From: Nisaea sediminum | GTDB taxonomy: Bacteria > Pseudomonadota > Alphaproteobacteria > Thalassobaculales > Thalassobaculaceae | Reading direction: 5' to 3' | Assembly: GCF_014904705.1 (NCBI RefSeq) | Contig: NZ_JACZCQ010000010.1 | Span: 62,001-126,000, forward strand | Length of the DNA stretch: 64,000 nt | In this document: piece by piece, positions 27,249 through 53,015 of the stretch | How the letters are laid out: each line of letters starts with the position of its first letter | How positions within the stretch are numbered: the stretch's first letter is position 1 | Translations under genes and position numbers: made by a program | Notes under the pieces: model-generated | Database searches by the model: none | Told to the model about the DNA's origin: nothing | The model's input: the letters and a program-made list of their open reading frames with translations, nothing else

Positions 27249-27463
27249 CAGTCGCGCACGCTCTTCGGGCGCATGTCGGTCCAGACCTCTTCGACATGGG
27301 CGAGGCAGGACTCGCGCGAGCCGGTAAAGACCGACCGCCAGCCCGCCGGAACGGCTTTCGCGGCCGGCCAGAGGCAATATTGTTCTTCCGCGTTGAGCAA
27401 CACCTGATGGGTGGCCGCTGCGCTTTCAGCCGGCTCGGGCGTTTTCTCGGACATGCTGCTCAT
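27248..27463 (-). CDS. MbtH-like NRPS adenylation-domain chaperone
   Basis: A 71-residue MbtH-family protein, a partner that binds and activates NRPS adenylation domains. The signature residues are present: NAEEQYCLWP, PAGWRSVFTG and CLAHVEEVWTDMRP, with the family's three conserved Trp. The N-terminal 15 residues are an extra acidic/Ala segment. GAGGAAAAA precedes the ATG, and the gene overlaps both neighbours by four bases. It implies that one or more of the six A domains needs MbtH for activity. Confidence 0.93.
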   Translation of the reverse strand: MSSMSEKTPEPAESAAATHQVLLNAEEQYCLWPAAKAVPAGWRSVFTGSRESCLAHVEEVWTDMRPKSVRD

Positions 27464-27657: not shown

Positions 27658-27932
27658 CGAAATACCGTAACCATGAATACGTATTTTTTGCGTGTCGCGG
27701 GAGCGCGGAGCCCGCCCCGAAACCAGCGTCCGAACCAGGAGGTGATTTCCATCCAACGCAACTCCACTATGAAATGCCGGGAAGGCGTTTGCAATGGATA
27801 AATTATTTGTTCACAATGGGTTCCGGGCGGTCATGTCGTCTTGGAAAGAGGCGGCTGAATAGCATAAGCCGACAGCTTTTCGAATTTGGTTTAGGATCGG
27901 GTGGGCGATCCGAAAAATGAAGTGTGAGTGGA
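27658..27932 (+). promoter_or_regulatory. Divergent promoter region of the two NRPS-linked operons
   Basis: 275 bases between the leftward MbtH operon and the first NRPS gene. The middle (about 27795-27820) is A+T-rich. A perfect 6-base inverted repeat GGATCG-GGTGGG-CGATCC at 27894-27911 lies 21 bases before the NRPS start and could be an operator or leader hairpin. I could not pick out convincing -35/-10 boxes. A 42-codon open frame at 27673-27801 was considered and rejected. Confidence 0.45.
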
Positions 27933-33900: not shown

Positions 33901-36900
33901 GATGGATGGTGCCGCGGCGGATCGCGGTGCTCGACGCCCTGCCGCTGACGCCGAACGGCAAGCTGGACCGCGGCGCCCTTGCGGTGCCGGAAGATGAAGG
34001 TTCCGAAGAAAACGCGCCGGTCACATACGCGACCGAAACCGAACAGGCACTCGCCGGTATCTGGACCGATCTTCTCGGTGGCGGGACGTTCCGTCCCGAG
34101 GACGGGTTCTTCTCCGTCGGCGGACACTCCCTCCTCGGCGTGCGCCTTGCGGCGCAGATCCGCGCGCGCTTCGGCGCCGCGTTGCCGCTGAAGACAATCT
34201 TTGCCAAACCGCGTCTCGCCGAGATGGCGGCGGAAATCGACGCGCTCGGCGGCACGGACGAGGACCGGCCGATCGCGCGGGACTGGCCGGACGAGTTCCG
34301 GCCGGCTTCCGCCATGCAGCGCCGCCTTGCCCTGATGGACCGGATCGACGGCTCCGGCATCGCCTACACGGTGCCGGTCGTCACCCTCTTCGAGGGCGTG
34401 CCCGATTCGGAGAAACTGCAGCATGCGCTCCGCCGGCTGGCCGCGCGGCACGAGCCCCTGCGCACGGCGATCCGCATCGGCGAGCGGGTCGAAGGTGTGC
34501 TTCTGCCGGTCGACGATCTGGTGCTGAAGCATGAGCGGTTGGCCGCGGCGGATGCCAAAGAGGCACGCGAGACGGCGGAAGAGATGGCGCGCGGACTGGC
34601 GAAAGAGCCGTTCCATCTCGCCTCGGATCTGCCGCTCCGCGCGAGCCTTCTCGACTTCGCCGGCAGTCGCTCCGCCCTCGTGCTGGTGCTGCATCACAAC
34701 GCGGTCGACGGCCATTCGGTGCCGGTGCTGCTCCGCGATCTGGCGGCGTTCTACAACGGTGGACTGCCGGAACCGCTTTCCTTCCGCTACGGCGACTGGG
34801 TCGCGTGGCGCGAGGGCGATGCCCGATCGGCGCGAGACGCGGCGTCGCTCGCCCGGGCGCACGAGGTACTCGATGGGGCGCCGCCGCTGCTCGATCTGCC
34901 GACCGACTCCCAGCGCCCGGCCCAGCGTACCCATTTGGGCGGCGTTGTGCCGTTCGCCATCGACCCGGCACTTGAGACGGCAATGAAGGGGCGGGCGCAA
35001 AGCCTCTCCGCGACGCCTTTCGCAGTGATGGTCGCCGCCTATGCCGTGCTGCTGGCCCGGACCGCCGGGACCGACGATCTGGTGCTCGGCATTCCCTTCG
35101 ACGGCCGCGAGGTTGCGGAAGCGGACAATCTTGTCGGCTTCTTCGCCGATACCGCCGCGATCCGTATCCGCATGGATGACGATCCGTCGGCCTCCGAACT
35201 CATTCTCCGTGTCCGTGACGAACTGGCCCGCGCGCTTTCCGAGCCGGCGCCGCTCGACCGGCTGATCGAGGCAATGGACCTCAAGCGCGATACCAGTCGG
35301 ACGCCGCTCTTCCAGGCAATGATCGCCTATAACGAGGAGGCGCAGCCGCGCCTCAGCCTCGGCGGTATCGACGGCCGCCCGCTCAACGTGCATCCCGGCA
35401 CCGCGAAGTTCGACCTGCAGCTCCAGATCCTTCGCGAGCAGGGTGGCCTGACGGGGGCGCTCGAATACGCGAGCGATCTCTTCACGGCGGAAACGGCAAC
35501 GTCTCTCGCCGCGCGCTATTCCCGAGTTCTATCTTGGTTTGCATCTGGCGGTTTTGGCCGTCTGTCGTCGGTACCGCTGGTGGATGCGTCGGAGCGTTCT
35601 TGGTTGCTGGAGGGTGTGAACGCGACTGCGCGGGATTACGGATCCTTCGAGCCGGTGATCCGTGGCTTCGAGCGAGTGGCGGCGGAAGACCCGTCGCGTG
35701 CGGCGCTGCGGTTCGAAGGCGCGGAGCTCGGCTACGGCGAGCTGAACGCCCGCGCGAACGCGCTGGCGCGGCGTCTCTTGCGGGCGGGCGTCGGACGGGA
35801 CGTGCGCGTCGGTGTGGCGCTCGAGCGCTCTGCCGATCTGGTGGTGGCGCTCTTGGCGGTGATGAAGGCGGGCGGGGCCTATGTGCCGCTCGACCCGGAA
35901 CTGCCGGCGGACCGGCTCGGCTTCATGATCGGCGACGCGGCGGCGCCGGTTGTGGTCACGCGGACGGGCCTGCTCGAGACATTGCCGGTGCATGACGGAC
36001 GGACGATCTGCGTCGACGATGCGGGCAGGAGCAGCCGGCGCGGTGCCGATGCCGGCAATCCCGATGTGGAGCTCGGCCCGAACGACCTCGCCTACGTGAT
36101 CTACACCTCGGGCTCGACCGGATTGCCCAAGGGGGTGATGAACGAGCACGGGGGGCTCGCCAACCGTATCCTCTGGATGCAGGAGCGCTTCGGTATCGGC
36201 GCCGGGGACAAGGTCCTCCAGAAGACGCCCTATACCTTCGACGTCTCGGTCTGGGAGTTCTTCTGGCCGCTGATGTGCGGCGCCTGTCTCGTGGTGGCGA
36301 AGCCGGGCGGACACAAGGACCCGGACTATCTGGCGCGTCTGATGGAGGAGGAGGGGATCTCCGTCCTGCATTTCGTGCCCTCGATGCTGCAGGCCTTCCT
36401 CGGCCATGGCGGCTCGGCTGCCAGACTGAATCAGTGCAACTCCCTGCGCTATGTGATGTGCAGCGGTGAGGCGCTCTCTCCGAGTCTGGTGGAACGGTTC
36501 GAGAGCCTGAAGCCAGGCAACGCGGAACTGCATAATCTCTACGGCCCGACGGAAGCGGCGATCGACGTGACGCACTGGCGGTGCGGCAGCCCGGCGGAGG
36601 ATCCTCTGCCGATCGGCCATGCGATCGCGAACACGAGCCTCTATGTGCTGGACAGTGCGCTGGAGCCTGTTCCGGTGGGTGTCGCGGGCGATCTCTGGAT
36701 CGGCGGCGTTCAGGTCTCGCGCGGCTATCTCGGCAGGCAAGGCCTCACGGCCACCACCTTCATCGCGGATCCCTACTCACCCAAGCCCGGCGCACGGATG
36801 TACCGGACAGGGGACATCGCGAGGCGACGCGCGGACGGGGCGCTGGTCTATCTCGGGCGAAGCGACTTCCAGGTGAAGCTCAGGGGCTTCCGGATCGAGC

Positions 36901-39900
36901 TGGGCGAGATCGAGTCGGCGCTGATGAGCCACGGCTCGATAAAAGAAGCTGCCGTTCTTCTGCGCGAGGACCGTCAGGGCGATCCGCGTCTGGTGGGGTA
37001 TCTGGTTGCGGAAGGCAATGTGATTCCGGCGGATCTGGGTCCGAAGCTCAGGGAGCGGTTGCCGGAGCACATGGTCCCGTCGGACTGGGTCACTCTCGAG
37101 GCGCTGCCGATCACGGCGAACGGGAAGCTGGACCGCAATGCCTTGCCGGCGCCGGAGCTGACGGCGGCGGGGCTGGGCGGCCGGCCGCGGGGTCCGGAGG
37201 AGGAAGTGTGCTGCGCGGTTCTGGCGGGTGTGCTGGGACGCGAGGAGGTGGGGGCTGAGGACAATTTCTTCGCGCTCGGCGGTCACTCGCTGCTGGCGGT
37301 GCAAGTGGTCGGACGGCTGCGCAAGGCGCTCGGCATAGAGCTGCCCGCCAACGCCGTCTTCGCACACCCCACAGCACGTGACCTCGCTAAACATGTCAGA
37401 GACGCAAAGCGGGCGGACGAGAAGCCGATCGTGAAGGTGGAGCGTGAGACCGTGCTGCCGTCACTCGGCCAGGAACAGCTCTGGTTCCTCTCCAGCCTCG
37501 AAGGCTCCAATGCCTACAACGTGCCGGACGGTTTCGTCATCGACGGGCCGCTCGACCTGTCGGCCCTGTCCGGCGCGGTCTCCGATATCGTCGCCCGGCA
37601 CGAAGCGCTGCGCACCCTGCTCGTCGAGGAAGACGGACGCCTGATCGCGAAAGTGCGGCCGCCTGCGCCGGTTACGGTTCCGGTCGAGACGTTGGAAAGC
37701 ACCGACGAGGCGGCGATCCGCGCCTGGTTCGAACGGAAGGGGCTTGAGATTTTCGATCTCGGCCGCGATATCCCGGTCCGCGCCTCGGTCGCGGCGTTGC
37801 CCGATGGACGGCACCTGCTGGCGCTGGTGATGCATCACAGCGCGACCGACGGCGGCTCGGCCCCGGTGGTCTATCGCGATCTCACCATGGCCTATCACGC
37901 CCGCTGCCGCGGGCGGGCGCTCGCCCTGCCGCCGCTCTCCATCGCGTATTTCGACTGGGCGGCCTGGCAGCGGGAGCGCATGGCCGCGCCGGAGACGGCG
38001 GAGAATGTCGGGAGGGTGGCGAAACGGCTGGCCGGCGCACCTCAGACGCTCGCCCTGCCCGAAGATTACCAGCGTGCGGATCCGCAGGGCTTCGAAGGGG
38101 CCATGCTGCATCTGCCGGTGCCCGGAAAGCTCGCCCGTGCCTTGCGCGGAAAGGCGCGGGACAAGCAGGCGACGCTTTTCATGCTGCTGCTCGCCGGGCT
38201 CGGCGTCACGCTTCAGAGACTGTCGGGAGAGGGCGACATCGTGGTCGGCGCGCCGGCCTCCGGACGCGACCGCGGCGAGGTTCAGGATCTGGTCGGCTAT
38301 TTCGTCAATACGGTGCCGCTGCGCCTGCGTCTGGAAGACGCCGGATCGCTCGATGAGGCGATCGAGATCGCGCGGCGCGAGGTGCTGGAAGGCTTCACCT
38401 ATCAGGATCTGCCGATGGACCGGGTGGTGCAGGCGCTCGGCCCGGACCGCGCTGCGGGGCGGACGCCGCTCTTCCGCGTCATGTTGGTTCTGCAGCCGGC
38501 CGATCGCATGGCGCTCGCGCTCGACGGTGCGACGGTGACGCCGCTGCATGTCGATGCGGTCAGCGCGCGCTACGACCTGACCTTCGCCTTCGACGATCTC
38601 GGCGAGGGGCTCGGGCTCGTGGTGCATTACGCCGCCGACCTGTTCAGCGAGGCGAGTGCCCGCCGTTTCGCCCGCTATTACGAGAAGGTGCTCTCCGATC
38701 TCGTGTCCGAGCCGGACGCGGAGCTGTCGGCGGTCTCCCTCTTCGCGACCGGTTCGTCCGAGCGAGCGGCGGAGGTTTCCGGGAACGTGGTCGTCGACGC
38801 GCGGGGCGCCCCTGAAGGAACGGTGGTCTCCCGCTTCGCGGACATGGCGGCGGCGCACGGATCTCTGCCGGCACTCGAAGGCCAGGACGGCAGGTCGCTC
38901 AGCTATGCGGAACTGGACCGCCTGACGGACGAGGTGGCCGCCGGTCTCGCGGCGCGCGGCGTCGGCCGCGGGACGCCGGTCGGGGTCAGCATGGCGCGCG
39001 GAGCCGACCAGATCGCGCTCTTCCTCGCGGTGCTGAAAGCGGGCGGGGCCTATGTCCCGCTCGACCCGGAACAGCCTGGTGCGCGGCTGGCGGACATGGC
39101 CGAGGATGCGGGCGTCGCACTGGTCGTGACAGACGGCGCACCGGCCGATTGGCTGCCGGGCGGGATCGAAGCCGTCGGATTCGAGGGCCTCGCGGTTGCG
39201 GGCGGCAAGGTCGACTGTCCCGCGACCCTTGGCGCGGACGCGGCCTATATCATGTTCACCAGCGGCTCGACCGGCCGGCCGAAAGGCATCCGCGTGCCGC
39301 ACCGCGCGGTCCTTAGGCTCGCCGTCGAGCCCGGCTTCGCGACATTCCACCCCGGCAAGCGCGTCGCGCAGATCGCGACCACGGCCTTCGATGCCGCGAC
39401 CTACGAGATCTGGTGCGCGCTGTTGAACGGCGCGACCACGGTCGTCGTGGGACGTGAAGCGACCTACGATCCGGATGCGCTCGCAGCGGCACTTGGCACG
39501 GCGCGGCCGCATTCCATGTTCCTTACGACGGCGGTCTTCAATCGTGCGGCTGCGTCCGAAGCGGATGTGTTCGCCGGGGTCGAGGAGATCCTGGTCGGCG
39601 GCGAACGGGTCGATCCGGACGCGATGCGCACGGCGCTGGATCGCTGGCCGGGGCTCAGGATATCCAACGTCTACGGTCCGACCGAGACCACCACTTTTGC
39701 CTCTCACTTTCCCGTGGACCGGGTGCCGCAGGGTGCGGGCAACGTGCCGATCGGCGGGCCGATCCGGGGGACGGCGCTCTATGTGCTCGACGCCCATCTG
39801 GAGCCGGTGCCCCGCGGCGTTGCGGGCGAGCTCTATATCGGCGGCACAGGGCTTGCGGACGGCTATGTCGGACGGCCCGGGCAGACCGCCGAGGCCTTTG

Positions 39901-40646
39901 TGGCGGATCCCTATTCCGGCGAGCCCGGCGCCCGCATGTACAGGACGGGCGACCTCGTCCGACGCCGCGCCGACGGGGCGGTCGAGTATCTCGGCCGCGT
40001 CGACCGGCAGATCAAGCTGCGGGGGTTCCGCATCGAGCCGGGCGAGATCGAGGCGGCCCTGCGCGAGGTTTCCGGTGTCGATCAGGTTGTCGTCGATGTG
40101 CGCGAAAGCGATGGCGACCGGGCGCTCTATGGCTGGGCGGTCGCGCCGGAGGGCACGGACACGCGGCGCTGGCGCGATGCGCTCGCCGAACGATTGCCGG
40201 GCTGGATGGTCCCGCGGCGTATCGCCCTGCTCGACACGCTGCCGCTGACGCCGAACGGCAAGCTCGACAGATCCGCCCTCACTGTGCCTGAGGGCGGAAC
40301 CGAGCCGTCGGCGGCGGGGCCGGTGGCATATGCCACGGACACCGAGCGTGCGCTTGCCGCACTCTGGAGCGAACTTCTGGGTGGGGGGAGCTTCCGGCCT
40401 GATGACGGTTTCTTCAATGTGGGCGGCCATTCGCTGCTCGGCGTCCGCCTTGTCGCGGGGATCCGCGAGCGTTTCGGCGTCGCGCTGCCGCTGCGCGCGA
40501 TCTTCGAGCAGCCTGGCCTCAGGGCCATGGCGCGGGCGGTCGACGCGCTGCGCCCGGCGGACGGCGAAACCGCGGCTGCCGGAGACGACGGTCCGATCAA
40601 GCGCCGGACGCGGCGGTCCGGCAGGAAAGGCATGGAGCTGACATGA
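27933..40646 (+). CDS. Four-module nonribosomal peptide synthetase (C-A-T x4)
   Basis: A 4237-residue NRPS with no epimerase or other tailoring domain. C domains start near 27950, 31140, 34290 and 37445, with active-site motifs HHINMDA, HHIAADA, HHNAVDG and HHSATDG. The first and second end in Ala instead of Gly. A domains lie near 29300-30860, 32500-33980, 35600-37160 and 38800-40280. Carrier-domain serines are at 30984, 34128, 37287 and 40431. Pocket codes read by alignment to GrsA: A1 DVWHMSFIDK (Ser), A2 DAYFMGGTFK (Val-like), A3 DVWHMSLIDK (Ser), A4 DAYFLGVTFK (Ile/Val-like). The N-terminal C domain suggests a fatty-acyl or other acyl starter. The basic C-terminus ([10 protein letters not shown]) may be a docking tail to the next synthetase, whose gene overlaps by four bases. 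The start is uncertain: ATG 27933, ATG 27936 or GTG 27924, none with a strong ribosome binding site. Confidence 0.93.
29219..31108 (+). repeat. Long direct repeat copy 1: A1-T1 (Ser) cassette
   Basis: About 1.89 kb, very similar to 35522-37411 at a constant offset of 6303 bases. Identity begins abruptly at CCGAGTTCTATCTTGG, at the end of the C domain, and stops abruptly after GCAAAGCG behind the carrier domain. The flanking C domains are not alike. The opening also switches codon style (many Thr/Val/Leu codons ending in T or G). Confidence 0.9.
32514..33140 (+). repeat. Direct repeat copy 1: N-terminal half of A2
   Basis: About 0.63 kb nearly identical to 38814-39440 (offset 6300). It covers the A-domain core up to just past the first pocket residues, then diverges through the stretch carrying the remaining pocket residues, and becomes alike again near 33640 (39957 in the other copy). 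Confidence 0.85.
35522..37411 (+). repeat. Long direct repeat copy 2: A3-T3 (Ser) cassette
   Basis: Partner of 29219-31108. Both copies encode the same Ser-type pocket, differing only at the position equivalent to GrsA 322 (Phe in copy 1, Leu here). Confidence 0.9.
38814..39440 (+). repeat. Direct repeat copy 2: N-terminal half of A4
   Basis: Partner of 32514-33140. The pocket-forming segment after it differs between A2 and A4, giving different predicted side chains on a common framework. Confidence 0.85.
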
Positions 40647-43600
40647 GCCCCGACGGTCTCGGCGACAGGCTGGATGTTGTCCTCGAACCCGACCTGCCGC
40701 TCTCGACGATGCAGCTCGGCATCCTCGCCGAGCAATGGATGGCGCCCGGGAGCACGCGCTACAATGTCCCTGTCGCCTTTCGCGTCCGCGGCCGGGTCGA
40801 TCTCGCGGCCCTGCGCTCGGCCCTCGCTTGGTTGGCTGAGCGGCACGAGGTTCTGCGCACGGTCTATCGCGACGGTCCGGACGGCCCCGTCCAGGCCATC
40901 GCCGAGGAGGTGCCGGAGCTTCTGACGGTCGCATCGGTCGAAAGTCCGGAGGCGCTCGGAGCTGCCGCACGGCGGGAGGCGGGGCATGTCTTCAACCTGA
41001 AGGCTGAACTTCCGCTGCGTGCCGCCTTCATTTCAGCAGGGCCGGACGAAGGGGCGCTCGTCCTTGTCTTCCATCATATCGCCGTCGACGGCTGGACGCT
41101 GCGTTTGCTGCTGGACGAGCTGTCGCTTGCCTATCGTGCCTTCCTCGACGGAGACGCACCGGATCTGCCGGAGCCGGACCTGCAATATGCGGACTGGGGC
41201 GCCTGGCAGCAGGAGAAGCTTGCTCGGCCGGAGGCGGGCAACCTGCGCCGGGCCGCCATCGACCGGCTCGCTGACATCGGGGAGGATCTCGGTCTTCCGC
41301 CGCGTCCGGCCCTGCGTGATGAGGCGGATAACGGCGCCGAGATGCTGTCCTTCGAACTGGACGGCGCGACTGTCGGCCGGGCCGAGCAAACGGCGCGGCG
41401 TCTCGGTGTCAGCCTCTATGCCCTGCTTTCCGGCGCCTACGGCCTCGTGATCGGGCGGCTGTGCGACCGTGAGCGGCTCGCCCTCGGCATGCCCGTGGCG
41501 CTCCGCGACCGGAGCGAGGTGCACGGTACGGCGGGATGTTTCGTCAATACGGTGGCCTACATTGTCGATCTCGCGCCGTCGCTCACACGCGATGGCTTTC
41601 TCGCCGGGATGCGGGAGGCCGTGGTCGATGCGCTCGACGCGCGGGAGATCCCGTTCGAGCAGATCATGCGCGGTCTGGCCGAGAAGCGCGGCGACACGGC
41701 GCCGGCGGTGCGCTGTTTCTTCAATTTCGACGATGCCGGGATAGCTCCTCCGGATCTGCCCGGGCTGACGCCGGAGATTCTCGATTGCGACCGGGGCACG
41801 GCCAAGTTCGACCTGATGATGTCCATGGTGCGGAGCGGCGACGGCATCCGCGCCGGCTTCGATCATGCGCTCGGCGTCCTGCCGATGGAGGTCGCGCGCT
41901 CGGTTCCGGACCGGTTCCGGCGTGCGTTGGACTGGCTCTGCGCGACGGGGAACCCGGTGCTCTCCGAGTTCCCGCTCCTTGAGACGGGCGAAAGCCATAG
42001 GGTCGAGACGCTTGGAACGGGGCAGGTGCGGGCTGTTCAGGACGATACACTCGACGGTGCTGTCCTCGCCGCGGCGGAACGCGATCCGGACGGCATCGCG
42101 GTCACCGCGCCGGACGGCAGCCTGACGTTCGGTGAGCTGGTCGCTGCGGCCGAAACACTTGCCGGGCAGCTCGCTGCCGCAGGTACCGGGCGCGGCGACC
42201 GGGTTCTCGTTCTGCTGCCGCGCGGCCTCGCCCTTCCGGCGGCGATGCTCGGCGCGCTCAGGACCGCTGCAGCCTATGTGCCGGTCGATCCCGGCGTCCC
42301 CGAGCAGCGGCTGAAGGATGTCGTCGCGGACGCGGAGCCTTCGGTCTTGATCTGTGCGCCGGGCGCAGCTGCGATGCTCACTGAGGCACTGCCGGACACG
42401 GTTGCCCTGTTCGAAGCGGACGGAACCGTTTTCCGGCCGGTCAGCAGCGGTGGTCCGGCGAAAACGCGGATCGCGGCGCGGCCGGACGATCTCGCCTACA
42501 TGATCTATACCTCCGGCTCCACCGGCCGGCCCAAGGGCGTGATGGTGCCGCATCGCGGGGTGATGAATTACCTCGCCTGGGCGCGCGACGCTTACACCGT
42601 CGACGAGGGTGACGGCACGGCGGTGCTGACCGCGACGGCGTTTGACGCGACGGTGCTCTCGTTCTGGCTGCCGCTCGTCGCGGGCAAGCCGGTGCATCTC
42701 CTGCCCGAGGAAGGCGCGGTCGAAGAACTGGCCGAACGGCTGGCCGCCGGTGCAGATTACGGCTTCGTCAAGATGACGCCGGCCCATCTCGATCTTCTGG
42801 CGGAACTGAAGCCGGTCGCGGCGCAAAAGGCGGGTGCGCGGATGTTCGTGATCGGCGGCGAAGCGCTCGCCGTGGCCTCGACCGCGCCCTGGCGCCGCGA
42901 CGCTCCGGATATCCGGTTGATGAACGAATACGGTCCGACCGAGACCGTGGTCGGCTGCACCTGGCACGAGGCGGCCGTGTCGTGCGGTGCGGCGGAGCCC
43001 ATTGGCAAAGCGATCTGGAATACGAGGCTCTATGTCCTCGACCGCAATCTCGATCCGCTGCCGGCGGGCATGACGGGTGAGCTCTATGTCGGTGGCGCGG
43101 GCGTGTCCTGGGGCTACTGGCGACGGCCGGGCCTGACGGCGGAGCGCTTCCTCGCCGATCCCTTCGCATCGGAACCCGGCGCGCGGATGTACCGGACCGG
43201 TGACCTCGTGCGCTGGCGCGCCGACGGCACGCTCGACTATCTCGGCCGGGCGGACGAACAGGTAAAGGTCCGCGGTTTCCGGATCGAGCCGGGCGAGATC
43301 GAGGCCGGTCTCCGCTCCATCGAGGGGGTTCAGAACGCGGCGGTGATCGCGGTCGGTGAGGGCAGCGACAAGCGGCTGGTCGCGTTCGTGACCGGAGAGG
43401 CCGATCCCGAAAAGTGCCGGGCGCGCCTCGCGGCCCTACTGCCCGCGCATATGGTGCCGGACCAGATCCAGAAACACCTCGCGCTACCTTTGACCGGGAG
43501 CGGCAAGATCGACCGGCGGCAACTCGCGGCGCTCGCGGCGGAACAGTCGTCTGTGCTCGCTGGAGACGAAGGGGCGACCGGTGCCGATCCCGAGAAATGC

Positions 43601-46600
43601 GCGGCTCTCGTCGAACTCTGGCGGACGGTTCTGAAGAACGACGCAGCGGACGCGGGAACCGATTTCTTCAAGTCCGGAGGAACTTCACTCGCGGCGATCC
43701 GGCTGATCGCGCGTCTGAAGCGGAACTTCGGGGTCGAAACGAGTTTCGCCGATCTCGCCGCCGCCCCGACCCCGGCGGCGCTCGCCGCGCGCCTCTTCGG
43801 CGGGGCCGAGGAAGAGGAACCGGCGCTTCTGCCGGAGGTGCTGGAGATTGTCCGGATCGTATTGAAGCAGCCGGATCTCGGCGCGGATGCGGATTTCTTC
43901 CGCTCGGGTGGTACGTCGCTTGCCGCGATCCGTATCGTCGCACGGCTGAAACGCGCACTTGGATGCGAGGTTGCGAACGACGTCGTCCATCGCGGGCTGA
44001 CCCCGGCGGGCATTGCCAAGCTGATCGGTGAGACGGATTCGACGGCGACGGACAAGGGGCCGGCGCTGACTTTGACCAAGGGCGAAATGCCGGTCGCCTC
44101 CCCCGGTGAAGCCCAACTCTGGCTCGAACACGCGCTCGGCGCCGATGAGAGCGCCTATGTCATGCAGGCCGCGGTTCGCATTGCCCTGCAAGATCCGGAA
44201 ACGGAAATCGCATCCGCTTTCGTCAGGCTGGCCGACCGGCATCCGGTCTTGCGCACGGCCTATCCGGGCGGTGCGGAGGGTGCCTCGGTCGCGATCGCCG
44301 AAGCGCCGAGGCCGGCGATCAGATGCCTTGCGGGAGGCGATGATTTCGACGCTTCCGTCAAGGCGGCGGCGCGGGCCGATGCGGAAACCCGCTTTGCCAT
44401 CGAGGAGGGCGAGACCGCACGGCTCACCTATATCGCGGATGGCAAGGGATGCGGCGTGGTGGTGCTCTCGCTTCATCATATCGTCTCTGACGGAACGACC
44501 CTGGCGCTGCTGCTGAGAGACTTCGTGGCGCTGCTGAAAGGCGAGGTGCCGGCCGTACCGCAGGCGGATTACCGCGCCTATGCGAAATGGCGCGGCGATC
44601 AGGTGTGCGCGACGGAAGAGACCGAAACAGCGTTCTGGAAAGCGAAGCTGACCGAAACGCCGGGCCCGCTGGCCTTGCCGTCGGACCGTCCCCGGCGCCC
44701 GGGGCACCGGGCGCGCGGCGCCTCGGTGACGCTGCGGATCGATCCGGAACTTGCGCAACGTGCAGAAACACTGGCGCGGGAGCAGGGCGGCACGCTGCAG
44801 GGCTTGCTGGTCTCTGCTTATGCGCTGTTCCTGCATCGCCTGACCGGGGCGGACGATCTGGTGCTCGGCATTCCGGTGAGCGACCGGCCGGACGGGTTCG
44901 AGGAGGTCGCGGGACTCTTTCTGAACACGCTGCCGTTGCGCCTGTCCCTGAACGGCGGCGAGACCGGCGCGGACCTGCTCGGCCGTGTCCGCGAGGGTAT
45001 GACGGAACTGCTGAGTCATGCGGGCCTGCCGCTGGCGCGCATCGTCGAGGCGGTCAATCCGGAACGCCATTCCGGACGCACGCCCCTGCTGCAGACCGTG
45101 CTGGACTGGCGCGAGGCGGCGACCGGCGACGCGCTGAAAGCGGAGCTGGTGCCGCTGCCGGTGGCGACGGCGCCGTTCGACCTCGCCGCGAGCCTCGCCC
45201 GCGATGCGGAAGGCGGGATCACCGGCGGCTTCATCTATGACGGCGCCCTGCTGGACGAGGCCACCGTCGCCGCCTGGACGCGTTCTTTCACGACGCTGTT
45301 CGAGGGGCTGGTCGGTGGGCTCGGACAATCCGTCGGAACCTTGCCCACGGTCGCCGCGGAAGACCTGCCGCGCTCGATGCTGCAAGGCCCGGATGCGGGA
45401 GAGCTTCCCGAACTGGAGCTGCTGCTGGCGCAGAGCCTTGCCGAGCACGCCGATCTTCCCGCGCTCGATTTCGACGGGACAACACTCAGCTATGCCGAGC
45501 TCGAAGCGCGGGCGCGCGCCGTCACGCCGGTACCGGGCCCGGTCGCGATAGTCGCCATGGACGATCCTGTCCAGCGGGTTGTCGAAGCCTTGGCCGCTCT
45601 GCTGTCGGGCAAGGTGTTGGCTCTGATCGACCCTGCGCTGCCGGAAGCGCGCAGGGAACAGATGCGCCGGACGCTCGCCGAGGTGCCGGAGGGAACGGAC
45701 GGAGCCTATGCCCAGTTCACCAGCGGATCGACCGGCACGCCGAAGGCGGCGCTGCTGGGCCGCGCCGGGCTGGCCAACCTGATCCGGACCATCGGCCGGG
45801 ATCTCGAAATCGGTCCGGGCAGCCGGGTGTTGCAACTGGCCGCGCCGGCCTTCGATGCCTGGGTCTGGGAGGTCTTCACCACGCTCGGCGCGGGCGGGAC
45901 GCTGGTTCTGGCGGAGAGGGAGGCACTGCAGGCAGGTGCGCCGTTGGCGGCAACACTGATGGAGCGTCTGGTAAGCCATGTCACTATCACACCGTCTGCC
46001 TTGGCTGCGCTCGGCGAGAGCGACTTTCCCAAGCTTCGGACGATGGTCGCGGCGGGCGAGCCGCTGCCGGCCGATCTCGCGGATCTCTGGGCGCCGGGAC
46101 GGCGCCTGTTGAATGCCTACGGGCCCTGCGAGACGACTGTCTGCGCGACGCACGGGCTCTGCGCGGCCGGAGCCGCACCGGATATCGGTACGCCGATTGC
46201 CGGAATGATCGTTACGATGGCAGACCGCTATGGACAGCCCGCGATCCCTGGAGCGGTGGGGGAGATCGTCATCGGCGGGATCGGCGTCGGGCTCGGCTAT
46301 CTCGGCGATGACGAAGCGACGGCGGAAAAGTTCGTCGACGGACCGGACGGAACGCGGATGTACCGGACCGGGGACATGGCGCGGGTTACCGGTGACGGAC
46401 GGATCCAGTTCGTCGGGCGCGAAGACCGGCAGGTCAAAATCCGCGGCGTACGCATCGAACTCGACGAGATCGAGCATGCGCTGCGCAATGTGGCCGGCGT
46501 CGCGCAGGCGGCGGTGAAGACCGTTCCGGGCGCGGACGGGCGCCCGGCGCTTGCGGCCTGGCTGACCGGACCTGCGCCGGCCGCCGCCAGCGACGTGCGA

Positions 46601-47644
46601 AAGTTGCTCGGAGAGAAACTTCCCGAGACCATGCTGCCGGCTTTCCTCAACGTGCTCGATGCGATGCCGAGGACCGTCACGGGCAAGATCGACCGCACCG
46701 CGCTGGTATTGCCTCAAGCCGCCACGGCAGAAGAGGACGAGGCGCCGCGCTCCGGGACAGAGGCGGACATCCTCGACATTTTCCGCGAGGTGCTTTCGCT
46801 CGAGAAGCGTCCGGGACGAACCCGGAACTTCTTCACCCTTGGTGGCCACTCGCTCCTCGCGGTCCGTCTGGCGGCGAGATTGGGCGAGAAGCTCGGCTGC
46901 AAACTGCCGCTGCCGCTCGTCTTTGCCAACCCGACGGCCGCCGGCCTTGCCGCGCTGGTCATGGGGCAACCGGAGGAGCGCGGTCCGTGCCTGTTACGGA
47001 CCTTGCGCGAAGGTGCGGAGCCGGCGGCCTATCTTGTCCACCCGGTCGACGGGTCCGGAGCGGTTTATCGGAAGCTTGCCGATGCCTGGGCTGGTGAGCG
47101 CCGCATCGTCGCGGTCGAGCAGGGAACCGGCTTCGAGACCCTCGCGGACCAGGCGGACGCTTATGCGGACGTCATCTCGCACGCGGCGGACGAGACTGCG
47201 CCCATCCTGCTGGCGGGCTGGTCGCTCGGTGCTGTCATCGCGGCCGCTGTCGCAGCATGGTTGCGCGAAACGGGCCGGGATGTGAGGCTGGTGCTGCTGG
47301 ATGCCGCCGCACCGGTGGCGGGCGATGCCGCAATCGATGCGGCGGAAATCGAGGCTGCGGCGGCCGCAGCAGGAGCGGATGCGGAGATTGTGGCCCGCGC
47401 GCGGGACAATGTGCGTATCGCAGCGGAGCACCGGTTCTATCCGGCGGCGGGGATGGCCGCCCTTATCAGGGCCAGAGGCACCGAACGTCCCGGAATGGAC
47501 GAAGGGCTCGGTTGGGCGGCGATCTTCGACCGCCTGACCGTAAAAGAGGCTGCAGGGACACATCAGACATTGCTGCGCGAGGGCGACCTTGCGGAGCTGA
47601 CAAAGCTGATCGAATTGCTTTGGCACGAGCAAGGGGAGCGATAG
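40643..47644 (+). CDS. Two-module terminating NRPS (C-A-T-T-C-A-T-TE)
   Basis: A 2333-residue synthetase whose start overlaps the first NRPS gene (ATGA). The order is C5 (HHIAVDG at about 41072), A5 (about 42040-43540), two carrier domains in tandem (Ser at 43685 and 43916, both GGTSL), C6 (HHIVSDG at about 44474), A6 (about 45400-46720), T6 (Ser at 46850) and a type I thioesterase (Ser at 47222 in GWSLG; likely His in GTHQTLL). Pocket codes: A5 DALKVGEVGK, nearest to Asn codes; A6 DAWTVAAVCK, the classic Phe pocket. A6 is shorter than normal at its N-terminus by about 50 residues and reads GPCE where most A domains have GPTE, but its later core motifs are intact. The thioesterase releases the hexapeptide by cyclisation or hydrolysis. 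Confidence 0.93.
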
Positions 47645-47646
47645 GG

Positions 47647-48642
47647 ATGGCTACGCTGGACGGAACCGTACGGCAATTGTTCGAGGGCGAGGATTTCGCG
47701 GTCCTCGTCGAGGCGGACGGCACGAGCGGCAACGCCGCGTCCTGGGTCTCGGCCAATCTCGCCGGGATCGAGGAGCTGGCGAAGACGCATCCGGTCGTGG
47801 TCCTGCGCGGCATCGGCCTGTCCGACGAGAAGGGCTTTCCGCCGGTGCGCGACCTTCTGGTCGGCCGCCCGGCGAACTATGTCTATCGCTCGACGCCGCG
47901 TACCGAAGTGCTCGAAGGCGTGCTGACCGCGACGGAATATCCGGCGAGCGAAGAGATCCTGATGCATTGCGAGAACGCCTACCAGCGTGACTGGCCACTG
48001 CGTCTGGTCTTCTGCTGCATCAAACCGGCGGAGACGGGCGGACAGACGCCGGTGGCCGACGTGCGCAAGGTCACGCGGGATATCGGCGAGGAGATCCTCG
48101 ACGAGGTCGAGCGCCGGGGCATCCGTTACATCCGGAACTACCACGAGGGCTTCGACCTTGACTGGAAGACTGTGTTCCAGACCGACGACCGGGGTGAGGT
48201 CGAGCGCTTCTGCCGGGAAAACGATATCGACTTCGAATGGACTGCGGACGGTCACCTGAAGACGGCGCAGACCTGCCAGGGCACCGCGCGCCATCCGGTG
48301 ACCGGAGAGCGGCTCTGGTTCAACCAGGCGCATCTCTTCCATGCCTCAGCACTCGGCGAGGACGTGCTGGAGGATCTGGTCGATATCTTCGGCGAGGACG
48401 GGCTGCCGCGCGATGCGCGCTACGGCGACGGCGCGCCGATCCCGGGCGAGGTGCTGGAGAAGGTTCGTGCGGCCTTTCAGAAAGAGGCCCGGCAGTTCGA
48501 CTGGCAAGCGGGCGACGTCATGCTGGTCGACAATATGCTGGCCTCGCATGCCCGGCGGCCCTTCACCGGCTCGCGCCGGGTGCTGGTCAGCATGGGCCGG
48601 ATGCATTCCGAGCTGGAGCAGATCGCGGGCGCGGCGGAATAG
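47647..48642 (+). CDS. Fe(II)/2-oxoglutarate hydroxylase, SyrP/AsnO-like (TauD superfamily)
   Basis: A 331-residue TauD/clavaminate-synthase-fold enzyme. The iron triad is visible as H107-C-E109 and distal H301 (DNMLASHARRPF), with the 2-oxoglutarate-binding Arg at R310 or R311 (TGSRRVLVSMGR). The H-X-E form is found in AsnO and clavaminate synthase rather than the H-X-D of TauD. The block RHPVTGERLWFNQAHLFH is typical of SyrP-like enzymes that beta-hydroxylate an amino acid for or on an NRPS. It starts two bases after the synthetase stop and follows a module with an Asn-like pocket, so beta-hydroxylation of that Asn is the best guess. Confidence 0.88.
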   Translation: MATLDGTVRQLFEGEDFAVLVEADGTSGNAASWVSANLAGIEELAKTHPVVVLRGIGLSDEKGFPPVRDLLVGRPANYVYRSTPRTEVLEGVLTATEYPASEEILMHCENAYQRDWPLRLVFCCIKPAETGGQTPVADVRKVTRDIGEEILDEVERRGIRYIRNYHEGFDLDWKTVFQTDDRGEVERFCRENDIDFEWTADGHLKTAQTCQGTARHPVTGERLWFNQAHLFHASALGEDVLEDLVDIFGEDGLPRDARYGDGAPIPGEVLEKVRAAFQKEARQFDWQAGDVMLVDNMLASHARRPFTGSRRVLVSMGRMHSELEQIAGAAE

Positions 48643-48674
48643 GCCGCGAGACAGAAGAGGCTGGGAGGCCGTCC

Positions 48675-50642
48675 ATGCGCATTGCGCTCGTCAACATGCC
48701 GTTCTCGTCGCTGCAGATCCCCTCGATCGCGCTGCATCAGCTCGAAACCGTGGTCCGCGAGAAGTTCGCCGACGCCGAGACCAGCGTGCATTACCTGAAC
48801 CATGATTTCGGCGCCCAGGTCGGGCCGGACCTCTACGCCTGGATCTCGGAGAGTCTCGCCGGCCATACCTGCGGCTTCGGCGAATGGTTGTTCCGCCATG
48901 CCGCCTTCCCGGAGCATGGCGACAATACCGAGGCCTATTTCGCCCGCTACCTGCACCATTTCGGAAAAGAGCAGGTCGAGCGCTATCACCGCGAGCTGGC
49001 GCCGGTTCGCGCCGACCTTCCGCGCATCCTCGACGAGATGATCGAGACCCACGGGCTGGCCGATGCGGATATCGTCGGTCTCACCTCGATGTTCTTCCAG
49101 AACATGCCGAGCTTTGCTCTGGCGCGTCGGCTGAAGGAAACCGGCTCGAAGGCGCTGGTGCTGATGGGCGGGGCCAATTGCGAAGGCAATATGGGCATCG
49201 AGATCGTCAATAACGTACCTTGGCTCGACTATGTCTTCTCTGGCCATGCGCTGGTCAATTTCCCGAAGTTTCTCGAGGCCTTCCGGGCCGGCGAGACCGA
49301 GGTGATGTCGAGGATCGACGGGATCTTCAGCCGGACCAACAGCCGTTCCATCACGGCGCTCGATCCGTCGGTGAAGGCGAAGCGGCCGAGCGATGCCAAG
49401 CCGGAGCTGCAGGTGGACGGCATCAAGGTGGACGGACCGGAGCGCTCGCTCAACAGCGACGTGCCGCTCGATTACGAGGTCTATCTCGAGTCCTATAAGC
49501 GCCATTTCGGCGACTATCGCGCCGACGAAGTCGAGCTGCTGTTCGAGACCTCGCGCGGTTGCTGGTGGGGCGAGAAGGCGCATTGCACCTTTTGCGGACT
49601 CAATGGCGCGACGATGAAGTTCCGCGAGATGGGCGTCGATCTCGCCCGCAAGACGATCCAGGAGATGGTCGACAAATACGCGGATCGCGTGACGCGCTTC
49701 GCCAGCGTCGACAACATCATCCCGAAATCCTACACCGACGACCTGCTGCCGGAACTGAAGGTGCCGGGCCACGTGACCCTGTTCTACGAGGTGAAGGCGG
49801 ATCTATCCCGCGAGCAGCTGAAGACTCTTGCAAAGGCGCGCGTGGTCGAGGTGCAGCCGGGAGTCGAGTCCATCGCGACCGAAACCCTGAAGCTGATGCG
49901 CAAGGGCACCACCGCCTTCAACAATATCCGCTTCCTCGCCGATTGCGCGGCCGAGGGGGTGAAGCCGGTCTGGAACCTGCTGGTCGGCTTTCCGGGCGAG
50001 TCCGCCGAGACCTTCGAGATGTACCGCAAGAACCTGCCGCGGCTGACCCACCTGCCGCCGCCCTCCGGCGTCTTCCCGGTGCGGTTCGACCGTTTCAGCC
50101 CCTATTTCACCCAAGCGGACAGCTTTGGGCTCGACCTCGAACCGCTCGATTATCACGAGCTGAACTATCCCTTCCCGGAAGAGGTGGTCTGGAACATGGC
50201 CTACTATTTCCGCGACCGGAACATCGACGCGCCCTACCAGGTCGACCTCGCCGAGCATCTGGCGCATCTGCGCGAGGCGGTGACGAAATGGCGCGCGCGC
50301 TGGGAATCGGAGGCGGGCGCGCCGCGTCTGCGCCTGATCGAGGACGATTATGGCTGGCTGGTCGAGGATCAGCGCACCGGCCACAAGGTCGAGCACGAGC
50401 TCGACGATCCAGACGTCGAACTGCTGCGCGCACTGGAGACGCCGCAGGCGCTCACCAAGGCACGCGAGATGAATGCCGACAGTCTCGCCTATCTGCAGGA
50501 GCTGGGGCTGCTGTTCGAGGAGCGCGGTCGGGTGATGTCGCTGGTCATGGAAGGCACGCGGCACGATCTCGATGCCGGACTGCACAGCTTCGCCGGCTCC
50601 AAGGGCCGGGCGGAGAACGCGGCGCTCGGTCTTACCTTCTGA
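48675..50642 (+). CDS. B12-binding radical SAM enzyme of the RiPP-maturation C-methyltransferase family
   Basis: A 655-residue enzyme. Residues about 1-230 form a cobalamin-binding-like alpha/beta domain (MRIALVNMPFSSLQIPSIAL, DIVGLTSMFFQN, ALVLMGGANCEG). The radical SAM core starts at residue 285 with cluster cysteines C296, C304 and C307 in RGCWWGEKAHCTFCGLNG, a CX7CX2C spacing that is normal for this family but unlike the usual CX3CX2C. The VEVQPGVES and WNLLVGFPGES strands follow, then a helical C-terminal region. Relatives are annotated as RiPP maturation radical SAM C-methyltransferases. Here it sits 32 bases after the hydroxylase gene, with a GGGAGG ribosome binding site, and no precursor peptide is visible, so an NRPS-bound or finished peptide is the likely substrate (inference). 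Confidence 0.87.
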   Translation: MRIALVNMPFSSLQIPSIALHQLETVVREKFADAETSVHYLNHDFGAQVGPDLYAWISESLAGHTCGFGEWLFRHAAFPEHGDNTEAYFARYLHHFGKEQVERYHRELAPVRADLPRILDEMIETHGLADADIVGLTSMFFQNMPSFALARRLKETGSKALVLMGGANCEGNMGIEIVNNVPWLDYVFSGHALVNFPKFLEAFRAGETEVMSRIDGIFSRTNSRSITALDPSVKAKRPSDAKPELQVDGIKVDGPERSLNSDVPLDYEVYLESYKRHFGDYRADEVELLFETSRGCWWGEKAHCTFCGLNGATMKFREMGVDLARKTIQEMVDKYADRVTRFASVDNIIPKSYTDDLLPELKVPGHVTLFYEVKADLSREQLKTLAKARVVEVQPGVESIATETLKLMRKGTTAFNNIRFLADCAAEGVKPVWNLLVGFPGESAETFEMYRKNLPRLTHLPPPSGVFPVRFDRFSPYFTQADSFGLDLEPLDYHELNYPFPEEVVWNMAYYFRDRNIDAPYQVDLAEHLAHLREAVTKWRARWESEAGAPRLRLIEDDYGWLVEDQRTGHKVEHELDDPDVELLRALETPQALTKAREMNADSLAYLQELGLLFEERGRVMSLVMEGTRHDLDAGLHSFAGSKGRAENAALGLTF

Positions 50643-50664
50643 CCGGATCGGGCGGCCGGATATG

Positions 50665-50694
50665 AAAAAGCCGCGGCGGGTGCCGCGGCTTTTT
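50665..50694 (+). terminator. Bidirectional Rho-independent terminator
   Basis: A perfect 13-bp stem, AAAAAGCCGCGGC and GCCGCGGCTTTTT, closes on the loop GGGT, with an A-run on one side and a T-run on the other. It lies between the radical SAM gene and the convergent DUF697 gene and can serve both. A second weaker hairpin (TGAGCC/GGCTCA, 50698-50718, followed by GTTCTTTTTC) overlaps the DUF697 stop. Confidence 0.9.
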
Positions 50695-50715
50695 GCCTGA
50701 GCCTGGAAAGACGGC

Positions 50716-51507
50716 TCAGTTCTTTTTCTTGCTCATCTCGTCGGACAGAGATGCCTTCATCGCGTCCGTGTCGACATCCGAGAGGGTGCCGCCGGCTTCG
50801 AAGTGCTCGATGAACAACTTACCGATGGTCCGGGTCGCGAGGTTGGAGAGCCCGGCCATGCCGACGAAGCCGACGCCGAGACCCCAGCCCGGAACGGACT
50901 TGAGGAACGTGGTCACGACACCGCTGGTGACGGCCCAGGGCGCGACACCGCCGGCGATGGCGCTGAGAATGGTGCGGACCCAGCTTTCGGAGAATTTCAC
51001 GCCGTAGAGTTTGCAGAGCGCCACCACCATGGCGACCTGGGTGCCGGAGATCCCGGCAATGTCGGCAAACGGGATCGGCAGCACGCCGAAGGCCGAGGAC
51101 CAGGCGGCATATTTGGAGACGATGGCCTGGGCCTGCTGGCGCTTGGCGGCGACATTGGCGACGACGGGTTCGGAAGCGACGGCTTCGGTTTCTGCAGTCA
51201 TGGCAATACCTGCTGTGGTTGTTTGTGACGTTGATGACGAAGAGGCCGCGGCCTTTTCCGGCCGCTTGTCGGTGGTTCTGGTAGATGGCTGTGCGCTGCG
51301 CTTCGCAGCCGTGCTCCGCGTCGCGGCTCCGGAGGCGGCCGCCGCAGCGGATTTCTTCGCAGCGGCGGGTTTCTTGGCCCCGGATTTCGCGGCGCTCTTT
51401 GCTGTTCCCTGCGTGGCGGCTGCAGGCCGGGCTGTCGTGCGTCCGGCGGTTCGGGACGAGGTGCCGGGCCGTTGCGTACGGCGCAGTTCCGGGAGTTTCT
51501 TGCTCAT
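50716..51507 (-). CDS. DUF697-family membrane protein with Lys/Ala-rich N-terminal tail (second of two)
   Basis: A 263-residue protein in two parts. Residues 1 to about 100 are disordered and histone-H1-like, rich in Lys, Ala, Ser, Thr and Arg (SAAKSGAKKPAAAKKSAAAAA). Residues about 125-250 form a DUF697 hydrophobic domain with IVSKYAAWSSAFGVLPIPF, IPFADIAGISGTQVAMV and the block IGKLFIEHFEAGGT, matching the paralogue at 21698. The ATG at 51507 overlaps the parA stop (ATGA), which supports inclusion of the basic tail. An internal ATG at 51204 would yield only the membrane part and has a weak ribosome binding site. The tail could bind DNA or the ParA protein; role unproven. Confidence 0.8.
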   Translation of the reverse strand: MSKKLPELRRTQRPGTSSRTAGRTTARPAAATQGTAKSAAKSGAKKPAAAKKSAAAAASGAATRSTAAKRSAQPSTRTTDKRPEKAAASSSSTSQTTTAGIAMTAETEAVASEPVVANVAAKRQQAQAIVSKYAAWSSAFGVLPIPFADIAGISGTQVAMVVALCKLYGVKFSESWVRTILSAIAGGVAPWAVTSGVVTTFLKSVPGWGLGVGFVGMAGLSNLATRTIGKLFIEHFEAGGTLSDVDTDAMKASLSDEMSKKKN

Positions 51508-52172
51508 ACCGTCTCGCTCGCTTTTCCTGCCTTGGCGCGGCGGCGGGACAGCAGTTTGTCGGTCTCGGCCGCGAATTCCGCGATTTCCGCAGCGGCTGCG
51601 CCGCGCGGCTGGTAATAGCTCGGTGTGGTTCCCGCCAGAGCGGCTTCACCATAAGCGACTCGGGCCGGAAATTCCACATTCATGGGTTGAAGCCCGGCGT
51701 CTTCCATCTGCGCGCGCATGTGGCGCGCGATCACACTGCCCCGTGTCGTCTGGCTGAGGACGAAGCGCACCGGCGCGGTGCTGAGCCGCGCCACATGCTC
51801 CGCCGTGTCGGCGGCCACCTGATAGTCAATCGGCGAGGGACGCATCGGGATCAGCAGCAGATCCGCCCGGCGGATCGCGGCGTCCGTCGCTTCGGACTGG
51901 AAACCGGGCGTGTCGATGATGATGGTGTCGAACCCGTCCTTGAGAAAGGCATCGATCTGTTTCTCGACCGTGCCGGGGCCGGCGGTGGCTGCGGCCAGAT
52001 CGGCCAGATCCTCGCCCGCCTCGATCCAGCGCACGAGCGTTCCGGCCGGATCGGCATCGATCAGCGCGACCTTTGCGCCTTGCTTGTGCCAATAGGCGCC
52101 GAGGCACATCGCGGACGTGCTCTTGCCGCTTCCGCCTTTCATGGTGACGAAGGTGATGATCTTCGCTGGCAC
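51504..52172 (-). CDS. ParA/MinD-type positioning ATPase
   Basis: A 222-residue P-loop ATPase of the ParA family. The deviant Walker A is K12-GGSGKST (signature Lys present), followed by Walker A' VALIDADPAGTL and Walker B TIIIDTPGF, and the late family block VRFVLSQTTRGSVIARHM. The length is that of minimal ParA proteins without an N-terminal HTH, the type that positions cargo (carboxysomes, chemoreceptor clusters, plasmids). No parB or replication gene is nearby. The start is GTG at 52172 with a strong AAGGAGG five bases upstream. It is translationally coupled to the Lys/Ala-tailed DUF697 gene, a likely partner protein. Confidence 0.9.
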   Translation of the reverse strand: MPAKIITFVTMKGGSGKSTSAMCLGAYWHKQGAKVALIDADPAGTLVRWIEAGEDLADLAAATAGPGTVEKQIDAFLKDGFDTIIIDTPGFQSEATDAAIRRADLLLIPMRPSPIDYQVAADTAEHVARLSTAPVRFVLSQTTRGSVIARHMRAQMEDAGLQPMNVEFPARVAYGEAALAGTTPSYYQPRGAAAAEIAEFAAETDKLLSRRRAKAGKASETV

Positions 52173-52275: not shown

Positions 52276-52290
52276 GCGACAAGGTGTCGC
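52276..52290. promoter_or_regulatory. Perfect palindrome in the parA/PPTase divergent promoter
   Basis: GCGACA-AGG-TGTCGC in the 144-base region between the divergent parA and phosphopantetheinyl transferase genes, in an A+T-richer stretch (AGAATATTTT upstream). Shape of a dimeric regulator site; the regulator is unknown. Confidence 0.45.
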
Positions 52291-52316
52291 TACCGAAAGC
52301 GAATGGAGGGGAAGGT

Positions 52317-53015
52317 ATGCCCGGTATTCCAGCGCCCTCGGCATCCTGGCCTTTCCCGGAGTTGGGGCTGCAGGTGGCCATGGCCGAGGCGGTCTTCGAG
52401 CATCGCATCTCCGAGCCGGGCGATTTCGCTGCCGCCGGCATTCCGATGCCGGAGGATCTGGTCGAGGCCGTCCCGATGCGCCGTGCGGCCCATCTCGCCG
52501 GGCGGGTCTGTGCCCGGGAGGCGCTGCGTGCGGCAGGAGCGGGCGAATCTCTGGTTGGGCGGGACCGTTCGGGCGCGCCGGTCTGGCCGGCCGGATTTCG
52601 GGGTTCGATCACCCATGCGGGCAGGACGGCCGCCGCCGCCGCGATCCGCGCCGCCGCCTGCCGGGGGATCGGGCTCGATTACGAAATCGTCATGACGGGC
52701 GCGGCCGCGGAAGAGATATCCGACCTCGTGCTCCGCCCGGCCGACCGGCGAGGGATTGCCAGCCTTGCGGGAACCTCCTTCGAGGAGGGGGCGACGCTGG
52801 TCTTCTCCCTCAAGGAAAGTCTCTACAAGGCGATCTCGCCGTCGCTCGGAGGTTTCACAGGCTTCGAGGACGCGGAGCTCGCCTGGATCGGCGGTGGTCG
52901 GGCAAGGCTTCGGCTTGTGCGCCGTCTGTCGGACGCCTTGCCCGACGGTACCGAGATGGACTGTGTCTATGCGCTGTCGGGTGATCTGGTGCGAACCCTG
53001 GCAGTGTTTGCCTAG
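52317..53015 (+). CDS. 4'-phosphopantetheinyl transferase (EntD-like)
   Basis: A 232-residue Sfp/EntD-type transferase that converts apo carrier domains to the holo form using CoA. Visible motifs: GSITHAGRTAAAA (the SLSH-type region), the Mg-binding IGLDYE, and the diagnostic FSLKESLYKAISP. The ATG at 52317 follows GGAGGGGA at good spacing; a GTG at 52284 in the same frame has none and lies within the palindrome. As the only such gene seen near two NRPSs with seven carrier domains, it is the likely activating enzyme. Its last four bases overlap the convergent dehydrogenase gene. Confidence 0.88.
   Translation: MPGIPAPSASWPFPELGLQVAMAEAVFEHRISEPGDFAAAGIPMPEDLVEAVPMRRAAHLAGRVCAREALRAAGAGESLVGRDRSGAPVWPAGFRGSITHAGRTAAAAAIRAAACRGIGLDYEIVMTGAAAEEISDLVLRPADRRGIASLAGTSFEEGATLVFSLKESLYKAISPSLGGFTGFEDAELAWIGGGRARLRLVRRLSDALPDGTEMDCVYALSGDLVRTLAVFA

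Follow-up and report, generated by a model that had tools for sequence, protein, structure and literature searches.

The DNA analysed here, referred to as the window, is a stretch of 64,000 nucleotides from Nisaea sediminum (contig NZ_JACZCQ010000010.1, positions 62,001 to 126,000). At one side of a non-ribosomal peptide synthetase (NRPS) locus, it carries a parA gene that overlaps a gene for a DUF697 protein, DUF697a. The features at this end of the locus are as follows.

51504..52172, minus strand: parA, encoding a ParF-like ParA ATPase of 222 aa with the signature Lys in its Walker A motif
50716..51507, minus strand: DUF697a, the putative ParA partner, 263 aa, PF05128
51504..51507, minus strand: ATGA overlap between the DUF697a start and the parA stop, read from the sequence
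51466..51507, minus strand: conserved basic N-terminal peptide, codons 1-14 of DUF697a (MSKKLPELRRTQRP), a candidate ParA-binding or ParA-activating element
51163..51465, minus strand: Lys/Ala-rich linker, residues 15-115, predicted to be disordered; composition not conserved outside the Nisaea group
50725..51144, minus strand: DUF697 domain, residues 122-261, helical in the model and borderline hydrophobic
50665..50694, unstranded: probable two-way terminator by its form, a perfect 13-bp inverted repeat with A/T runs on both sides
52284..53015, plus strand: phosphopantetheinyl transferase (EntD-like), divergent from parA

The inverted repeat lies between DUF697a and the convergent gene for a radical SAM protein. 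The open reading frames, strand, coordinates and 4-base overlap of the pair are all as the original prediction gave them.

A conserved parA-DUF697a pair

ParA was predicted to be a minimal ParA-type ATPase with the signature Lys, and this was borne out. The protein exceeds the Pfam cut-offs for VirC1 (57.0 bits), AAA_31 (54.0) and MipZ (49.4). Its Walker A motif is KGGSGKST, with K12 as the signature Lys, and the deviant Walker A motif of the ParA/MinD family, K12-G-G-S-G-K-S/T, is invariant in all 29 aligned relatives. By profile, the nearest solved structures are plasmid ParF 4dzz (E 5.9e-31) and 5u1g (E 6.3e-31).

Approximately 85,000 species genomes were scanned with an alignment of six ParA proteins as the query, yielding 67 loci. 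The scan was seeded by two exact peptide words, TMKGGSGK and I[IV]IDTPGF, so relatives having neither word were missed. Close relatives of ParA (39-98% identical) account for 29 loci (L051-L079), while the other 38 (L080-L117, mostly Devosia) encode distant ParA/MipZ-like proteins and served as controls. A DUF697 gene is immediately downstream of parA in 28 of the 29 close relatives, confirming that the two genes are coupled as a conserved unit; the exception is Nisaea nitritireducens (L057), where HlyD and RND genes come first and DUF697 follows at a distance of 4.3 kb. The DUF697 ATG is at the -4 overlap in 19/29 relatives, and a GTG is possible at this position in 3 more. Within the fetched flanks, DUF697 is present at 29/29 pair loci and at 0/38 control loci; these locus counts are not independent because the controls are mostly from one genus and the relatives are related to one another.

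Two of the pair-bearing contigs (L053 and L056) are filed under Phycisphaerales and Euryarchaeota MAGs and are probably misbinned alphaproteobacterial DNA. In an NRPS-free subclade, genes for similar-looking integral membrane proteins precede parA (L063, 3641-4525; L066, 8979-9890; L073, 5538-6437; L142, 8179-9189), the L142 copy being without a Pfam match. It should also be noted that, in pair-bearing genomes of Hyphomicrobiales type, DUF697 is C-terminal in open frames of ~500 residues (L223, L226, L267, L269, L272).

Both DUF697 proteins of the window belong to PF05128 (gathering cut-off 27.7), DUF697a with 46.5 bits and a second protein, DUF697b, with 56.8. DUF697 is the only domain that Pfam names in the ParA partner, with no ParB or other DNA-binding part. 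In the AlphaFold model of DUF697a, which is of modest confidence (mean pLDDT 61.5), residues 1-112 are without secondary structure and mostly have pLDDT < 50, followed by five helices. Foldseek with this model detected no match among PDB chains at E <= 0.001, and a DUF697 profile search of the PDB detected no relative at E <= 0.1. The protein had been described as a membrane protein, which is plausible and borderline, the best 19-residue hydropathy being 1.62.

The N-termini of the partners are strikingly alike: MSKKLPELRRTQRP, MNKKKLPKAVLR, MTRKPLPKAI, MSKKLPKAIRP and similar peptides of a KK-x-LP type. The pattern M-x0-4-[KR]-x0-2-[LF]P, written after viewing the linked set, fits 30/30 partners (the 28 adjacent ones, that of L057 and that of the window) when the start codon closest to the parA stop is chosen. 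The peptide is absent from unlinked DUF697 paralogues of the same loci, none of which (0/10) fits the pattern at its probable start; 2/10 fit when the start may be any Met or Val among the first 70 residues, as do 2/18 further unlinked DUF697 genes under a similarly loose rule. Over the first 20 residues of the partner, net charge is between +2 and +5 in each of the 29 rows measured. All 30 partners have a basic N-terminal motif like that of ParA/MinD partners, and it is predicted to bind ParA. Between the window and L053, 14/14 residues of this N-terminus are identical while 8/14 codons differ synonymously, compared to 13/67 identical residues in the linker and 75/132 in the domain. Since the residues are kept while the codons drift, the peptide is under selection at the protein level.

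The linker shows a different pattern. Its length and charge vary widely among DUF697a homologues, and its net charge is +7 or more in only 4/29 rows (window, L051, L052 and L054), with values of -5 to +3 in the other 25. The Lys/Ala-rich tail of the original prediction is therefore predicted to be disordered in the window, as claimed, while its basic character is not a feature of the family; a histone-like tail as the conserved working part is rejected on these counts. The conserved part of the tail is its first ~14 residues.

In the window itself, the tail is strongly basic (net charge +10), which could point to a relict or functioning DNA partition system, with the tail as its DNA-binding part and ParA segregating a replicon or island. 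The closest PDB match being plasmid ParF fits such a system, as does the occurrence of ParA homologues in 4,691 plasmid records, although all are < 60% identical. However, no DUF697a-like match covering 80% of the query was detected in 72,556 plasmid records, and in G001 the locus is on a single contig of 4.7 Mb. ParA scores 151.6 bits with NF041546 (ParA family partition ATPase), below the curated cut-off of 180. As originally predicted, neither ParB nor a replication protein is named by Pfam in the scanned set of window genes, which leaves out several small ORFs. Furthermore, there is no iteron-like array in 50600-52400, in a search that would miss a single or distant site, and the basic linker is not conserved. 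We consider DNA partition highly improbable.

Synthetase and exporter genes around the pair

The window genes on the DUF697a side of the pair include the following.

48657..50642, plus strand: B12-type radical SAM protein (TIGR03975, 497.4 bits; cut-off 281.85)
47515..48642, plus strand: TauD/TfdA-type dioxygenase, start uncertain
40643..47644, plus strand: NRPS 2 with a terminal thioesterase, by domain match
27924..40646, plus strand: NRPS 1, with 4 adenylation and 5 condensation stretches
26454..27377, minus strand: stand-alone thioesterase, by domain match
21698..22183, minus strand: DUF697b, 161 aa, with no N-terminal tail or peptide
19667..21385, minus strand: cyclic-peptide-type ABC exporter (TIGR01194, 313.9 bits; cut-off 286.2)
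18460..19674, minus strand: SPFH/Band 7 protein with one N-terminal hydrophobic helix

TIGR03975 describes a RiPP maturation C-methyltransferase, and its match in the window shares an NRPS locus with a TauD-type dioxygenase gene. Homologues of the radical SAM and TauD-type proteins (56% and 50% identical) are also found beside DUF697 at L187. Between the NRPS genes and DUF697b, at 22327-25643, are genes for a GDSL-lipase autotransporter and a putative beta-barrel porin, a stretch conserved in G001, G002, G004 and G025. The far end of the window (106-8665) holds sulfur-oxidation-like genes: a molybdopterin oxidoreductase, cytochromes c, a flavocytochrome c sulfide dehydrogenase, and sulfur transport and rhodanese domains.

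We examined the surroundings of the pair at 33 parA loci (the 29 from the scan, the window, G001, G506 and G556, whose contig ends just past parA). NRPS-type domains are near the pair at 18/33 loci (window, G001, G506, L051, L052, L054, L055, L061, L062, L064, L069-L071 and L075-L079), so the pair does not occur mostly away from NRPS genes. Contig ends cut many of these loci, and at 6 of the 18 (L055, L070 and L075-L078) the contig ends after no more than a carrier and/or thioesterase fragment. Genes for LanM (lanthipeptide synthetase) are near the pair at 2/33 loci (L068 and L072), and a polyketide synthase (PKS) at 1/33, in the N. nitritireducens genome, where it starts ~11 kb from parA. That giant PKS (L152, 1390-19998) has an AprA-type methyltransferase loading region and RhiE-type linkers, and is probably trans-AT, since Pfam names no acyltransferase domain in it. 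NRPS, KS or LanM domains are present in the fetched flanks of 16/29 pair loci and 0/38 control ParA loci (Fisher, 6e-8, ignoring relatedness).

At 13/33 loci there is no synthetase or exporter-linked synthetase at the pair, or the locus is cut short; 12/33 have no synthetase in the fetched DNA (L053, L056, L058, L059, L060, L063, L065, L066, L067, L073, L074 and G556). A fragment of the same radical SAM gene as that of the window is present at L053. An NRPS condensation domain is absent from 7 of the 13 parA-bearing genomes checked, which are MAGs of varying completeness. The NRPS as the specific cargo, as the original prediction suggested, is thus not supported, since LanM and PKS genes accompany the module too; given these contexts and the genomes lacking condensation domains, we reject the NRPS as the sole cargo.

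DUF697b, on the far side of the NRPS genes and missing from the original prediction, forms a cassette with the ABC exporter and SPFH genes. Of 14 cassette ABC proteins scanned, 12 exceed the TIGR01194 cut-off, with L191 (277.5) and L202 (255.1) below it. The cassette was checked in 30 of the 33 parA genomes (all except L053, L056 and L074). A DUF697 gene besides the parA-adjacent copy is present in 27/30 (not G676, G426 or G718), and in 23/30, including the window, it is surrounded by ABC and SPFH genes (G000-G004, G025, G416-G420, G423-G425, G427, G428, G461, G506, G556, G572, G584, G585 and G598). The seven without a full cassette are G676, G426, G718, G421 (contig end), G422 (SPFH only), G525 (ABC only) and G608. 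In G506, DUF697b, ABC, SPFH, NRPS, DUF697a and ParA genes fall within ~37 kb of an 8.2-Mb contig, in much the same order as in the window. The pair therefore co-occurs with the exporter cassette, which is a steadier companion than the NRPS genes.

The synthetase-free loci are also what would be expected if the pair positions some other membrane object, such as an envelope or surface structure, its occurrence in natural-product loci then being due to shared genomic islands or to a common membrane partner. Consistent with this, a chemoreceptor gene adjoins the pair at L073, and in G416, G584, G598 and G420 the cassette is on a different contig from the pair. However, such genomes usually still carry the DUF697b-ABC-SPFH cassette, which in G584, G598 and G420 lies beside LanM, away from the pair, and two distinct ParA lineages occur with DUF697 (see below). 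We regard another cargo as unlikely.

DUF697 and ParA across the class

We searched a sample of 385 genomes of the class, scoring the best 7 candidates per genome, so that the resulting counts are lower bounds. The DUF697 profile is matched in at least 18/385 genomes, compared to the second DUF697 copy in 27/30 parA genomes, and the ParA profile in at least 3/385. One of these is G168, whose ParA scores 207 bits with the family profile and in which DUF697 was not found. We fetched 18 of 19 DUF697 neighbourhoods, setting aside those of the window and G003:C79. SPFH is present in 14 of the 18, an ABC exporter homologue in 13, and NRPS/PKS domains in 10. As cassettes in this sample are usually without this parA, ParA is optional for the cassette.

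In two genomes, G280 and G350, a diverged ParA (27-28% identical) is encoded directly upstream of DUF697, again with an ATGA overlap. The partners begin MTRRPSLRDTL and MSRRPSLRDNL, and so share a different basic N-terminus (RRPSLRD). In G280, the pair comes after an exporter gene (TIGR01194, 334.2) and lies at the end of an NRPS/PKS locus; around the pair of G350, no exporter or synthetase gene is present within ~9 kb. In the ParA tree, these two proteins (lineage II, 100/100) are apart from lineage I, which forms one group weakly (33/59; 41% of bootstrap trees), with long branches flagged. Judged from these sequences, ParA was likely recruited to DUF697 independently.

On contig 4 of G293 (L185, L279-L283), DUF697 is positioned as in the Tistrella mobilis plasmid pTM3, on which we take the didemnin cluster to be located. 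Here, thioesterase, SPFH, cyclic-peptide ABC and DUF697 genes are directly upstream of an NRPS-PKS that has ~11 adenylation domains and 2 ketosynthase domains, and the fetched stretch around the cassette contains no parA match. Didemnin assembly is described as involving 11 NRPS and 2 PKS modules (PMC10811503); since the domain counts fit, the G293 NRPS-PKS looks like the didemnin cluster. A similar arrangement is annotated on Skermanella mucosa pSM-2 (NRPS, NRPS, MbtH, prohibitin, cyclic peptide export ABC transporter, hydrolase, hypothetical, DUF697), with no parA among the 18 features viewed. The DUF697-ABC-SPFH set is thus a genome-mining handle that marks NRPS, PKS and LanM loci across Alphaproteobacteria, among them the apparent didemnin locus in a producer that is amenable to genetics.

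Proposed function and comparison with known systems

ParA-type ATPases place plasmids, chromosomes, carboxysomes, flagella and chemoreceptors. We think it reasonably likely, from gene content and sequence, that the parA-DUF697a module positions the membrane machinery through which a non-ribosomal peptide is exported and to which its synthesis is perhaps tethered. ParA and DUF697a are constant and the cassette usually so, while the synthetase varies; the likeliest cargo would therefore be an exporter patch rather than the NRPS itself. As its family suggests, ParA-ATP would bind the nucleoid. The basic N-terminal peptide of DUF697a, by its sequence and by likeness to known partners, would contact the ParA dimer and trigger ATP hydrolysis, and the flexible linker would lead to the DUF697 domain, which would join the cargo. 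This cargo would be a membrane patch in which the related DUF697b, the cyclic-peptide-type ABC exporter and an SPFH scaffold come together. The exporter may also hold the synthetase at the patch, in the way that CesCD tethers CesAB in Bacillus. Gradients of ParA would in turn keep the patches spaced along the length of the cell and distribute them to both daughter cells. We infer these physical contacts, nucleoid binding and positioning from sequence and analogy.

FlhG- or MinD-type ATPases control number. Correspondingly, ParA may be an ATP switch acting through DUF697a on the assembly, number or activity of the exporter patch, rather than a positioner. This rests on the same genes and sequences as positioning, and nothing here counts against it, as the evidence fits a switch and positioning alike; we judge it quite unlikely.

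Returning to positioning, the recurrence of the pair with genes for making and exporting natural products suggests active placement of export sites within the cell in some bacteria. We tentatively propose a broader reading, in which a dedicated ParA-type system, probably evolved more than once, has natural-product export machinery, with tethered assembly machinery, as its cargo. DUF697 would be the cargo adaptor, acting with SPFH scaffolds and cyclic-peptide exporters, and ParA would determine the cellular site at which antibiotics and other peptides or polyketides are made and released. We found no description of ParA-type positioning of natural-product synthesis or export in the open-access PMC literature. 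If the proposal is true, natural-product export would be a new cargo class for ParA-type ATPases, the uncharacterised family DUF697 would gain a testable role, and why an exporter or synthetase needs spacing would become a question.

We know of no ParA-type positioner for pyoverdine 'siderosomes' or the Bacillus subtilis Pks megacomplex. In both, NRPS/PKS enzymes are described as gathered at the membrane or at one focus (PMC7527721). The nearest parallel for the tethering is cereulide, for which the ABC transporter CesCD is reported to tether the NRPS CesAB at membrane foci (PMC7527721). There too an ABC transporter gathers an NRPS at the membrane; however, the transporter is of another ABC type, and the excerpted text of that article mentions no ParA, DUF697 or SPFH. 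In Thalassobaculum sp. OXR-137, ABC and prohibitin genes lie beside an NRPS/PKS cluster, and the authors suggested scaffolding (PMC12016528). That case differs in concerning one genome, and in the excerpted text (PMC12016528) DUF697 is unmentioned and ParA is not linked to the cluster.

Among ParA systems, ParF-ParG resembles the pair in that ParF is the closest solved relative of ParA, which is likewise small and lacks an extra N-terminal domain. The N-terminal tail of ParG stimulates ParF, and ParG binds the centromere through a ribbon-helix-helix domain. The pair differs in having DUF697 in place of this centromere-binding part. A TlpT-type chemoreceptor is the partner in PpfA/TlpT, whereas only DUF697 is found here. 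The original prediction held that known cargo-positioning systems use a partner with a basic disordered segment, in agreement with reports that ParA-type ATPases recognise their cargo through a disordered N-terminus of the partner that carries positive charge (PMC12204374, PMC10241942); in McdB, the first 20 residues are described as necessary and sufficient for binding (PMC12204374). In McdA/McdB, as in the pair, the gene downstream of that for a ParA-type ATPase encodes a partner with a flexible region and a basic peptide at its N-terminus. The two differ in that the partner here is a DUF697 protein, DUF697 being its only Pfam match, with a borderline membrane domain, and in that its companions are natural-product synthesis and export genes; Pfam names no carboxysome gene among the window genes scanned. 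By analogy, the pair would work like McdAB or ParF-ParG.
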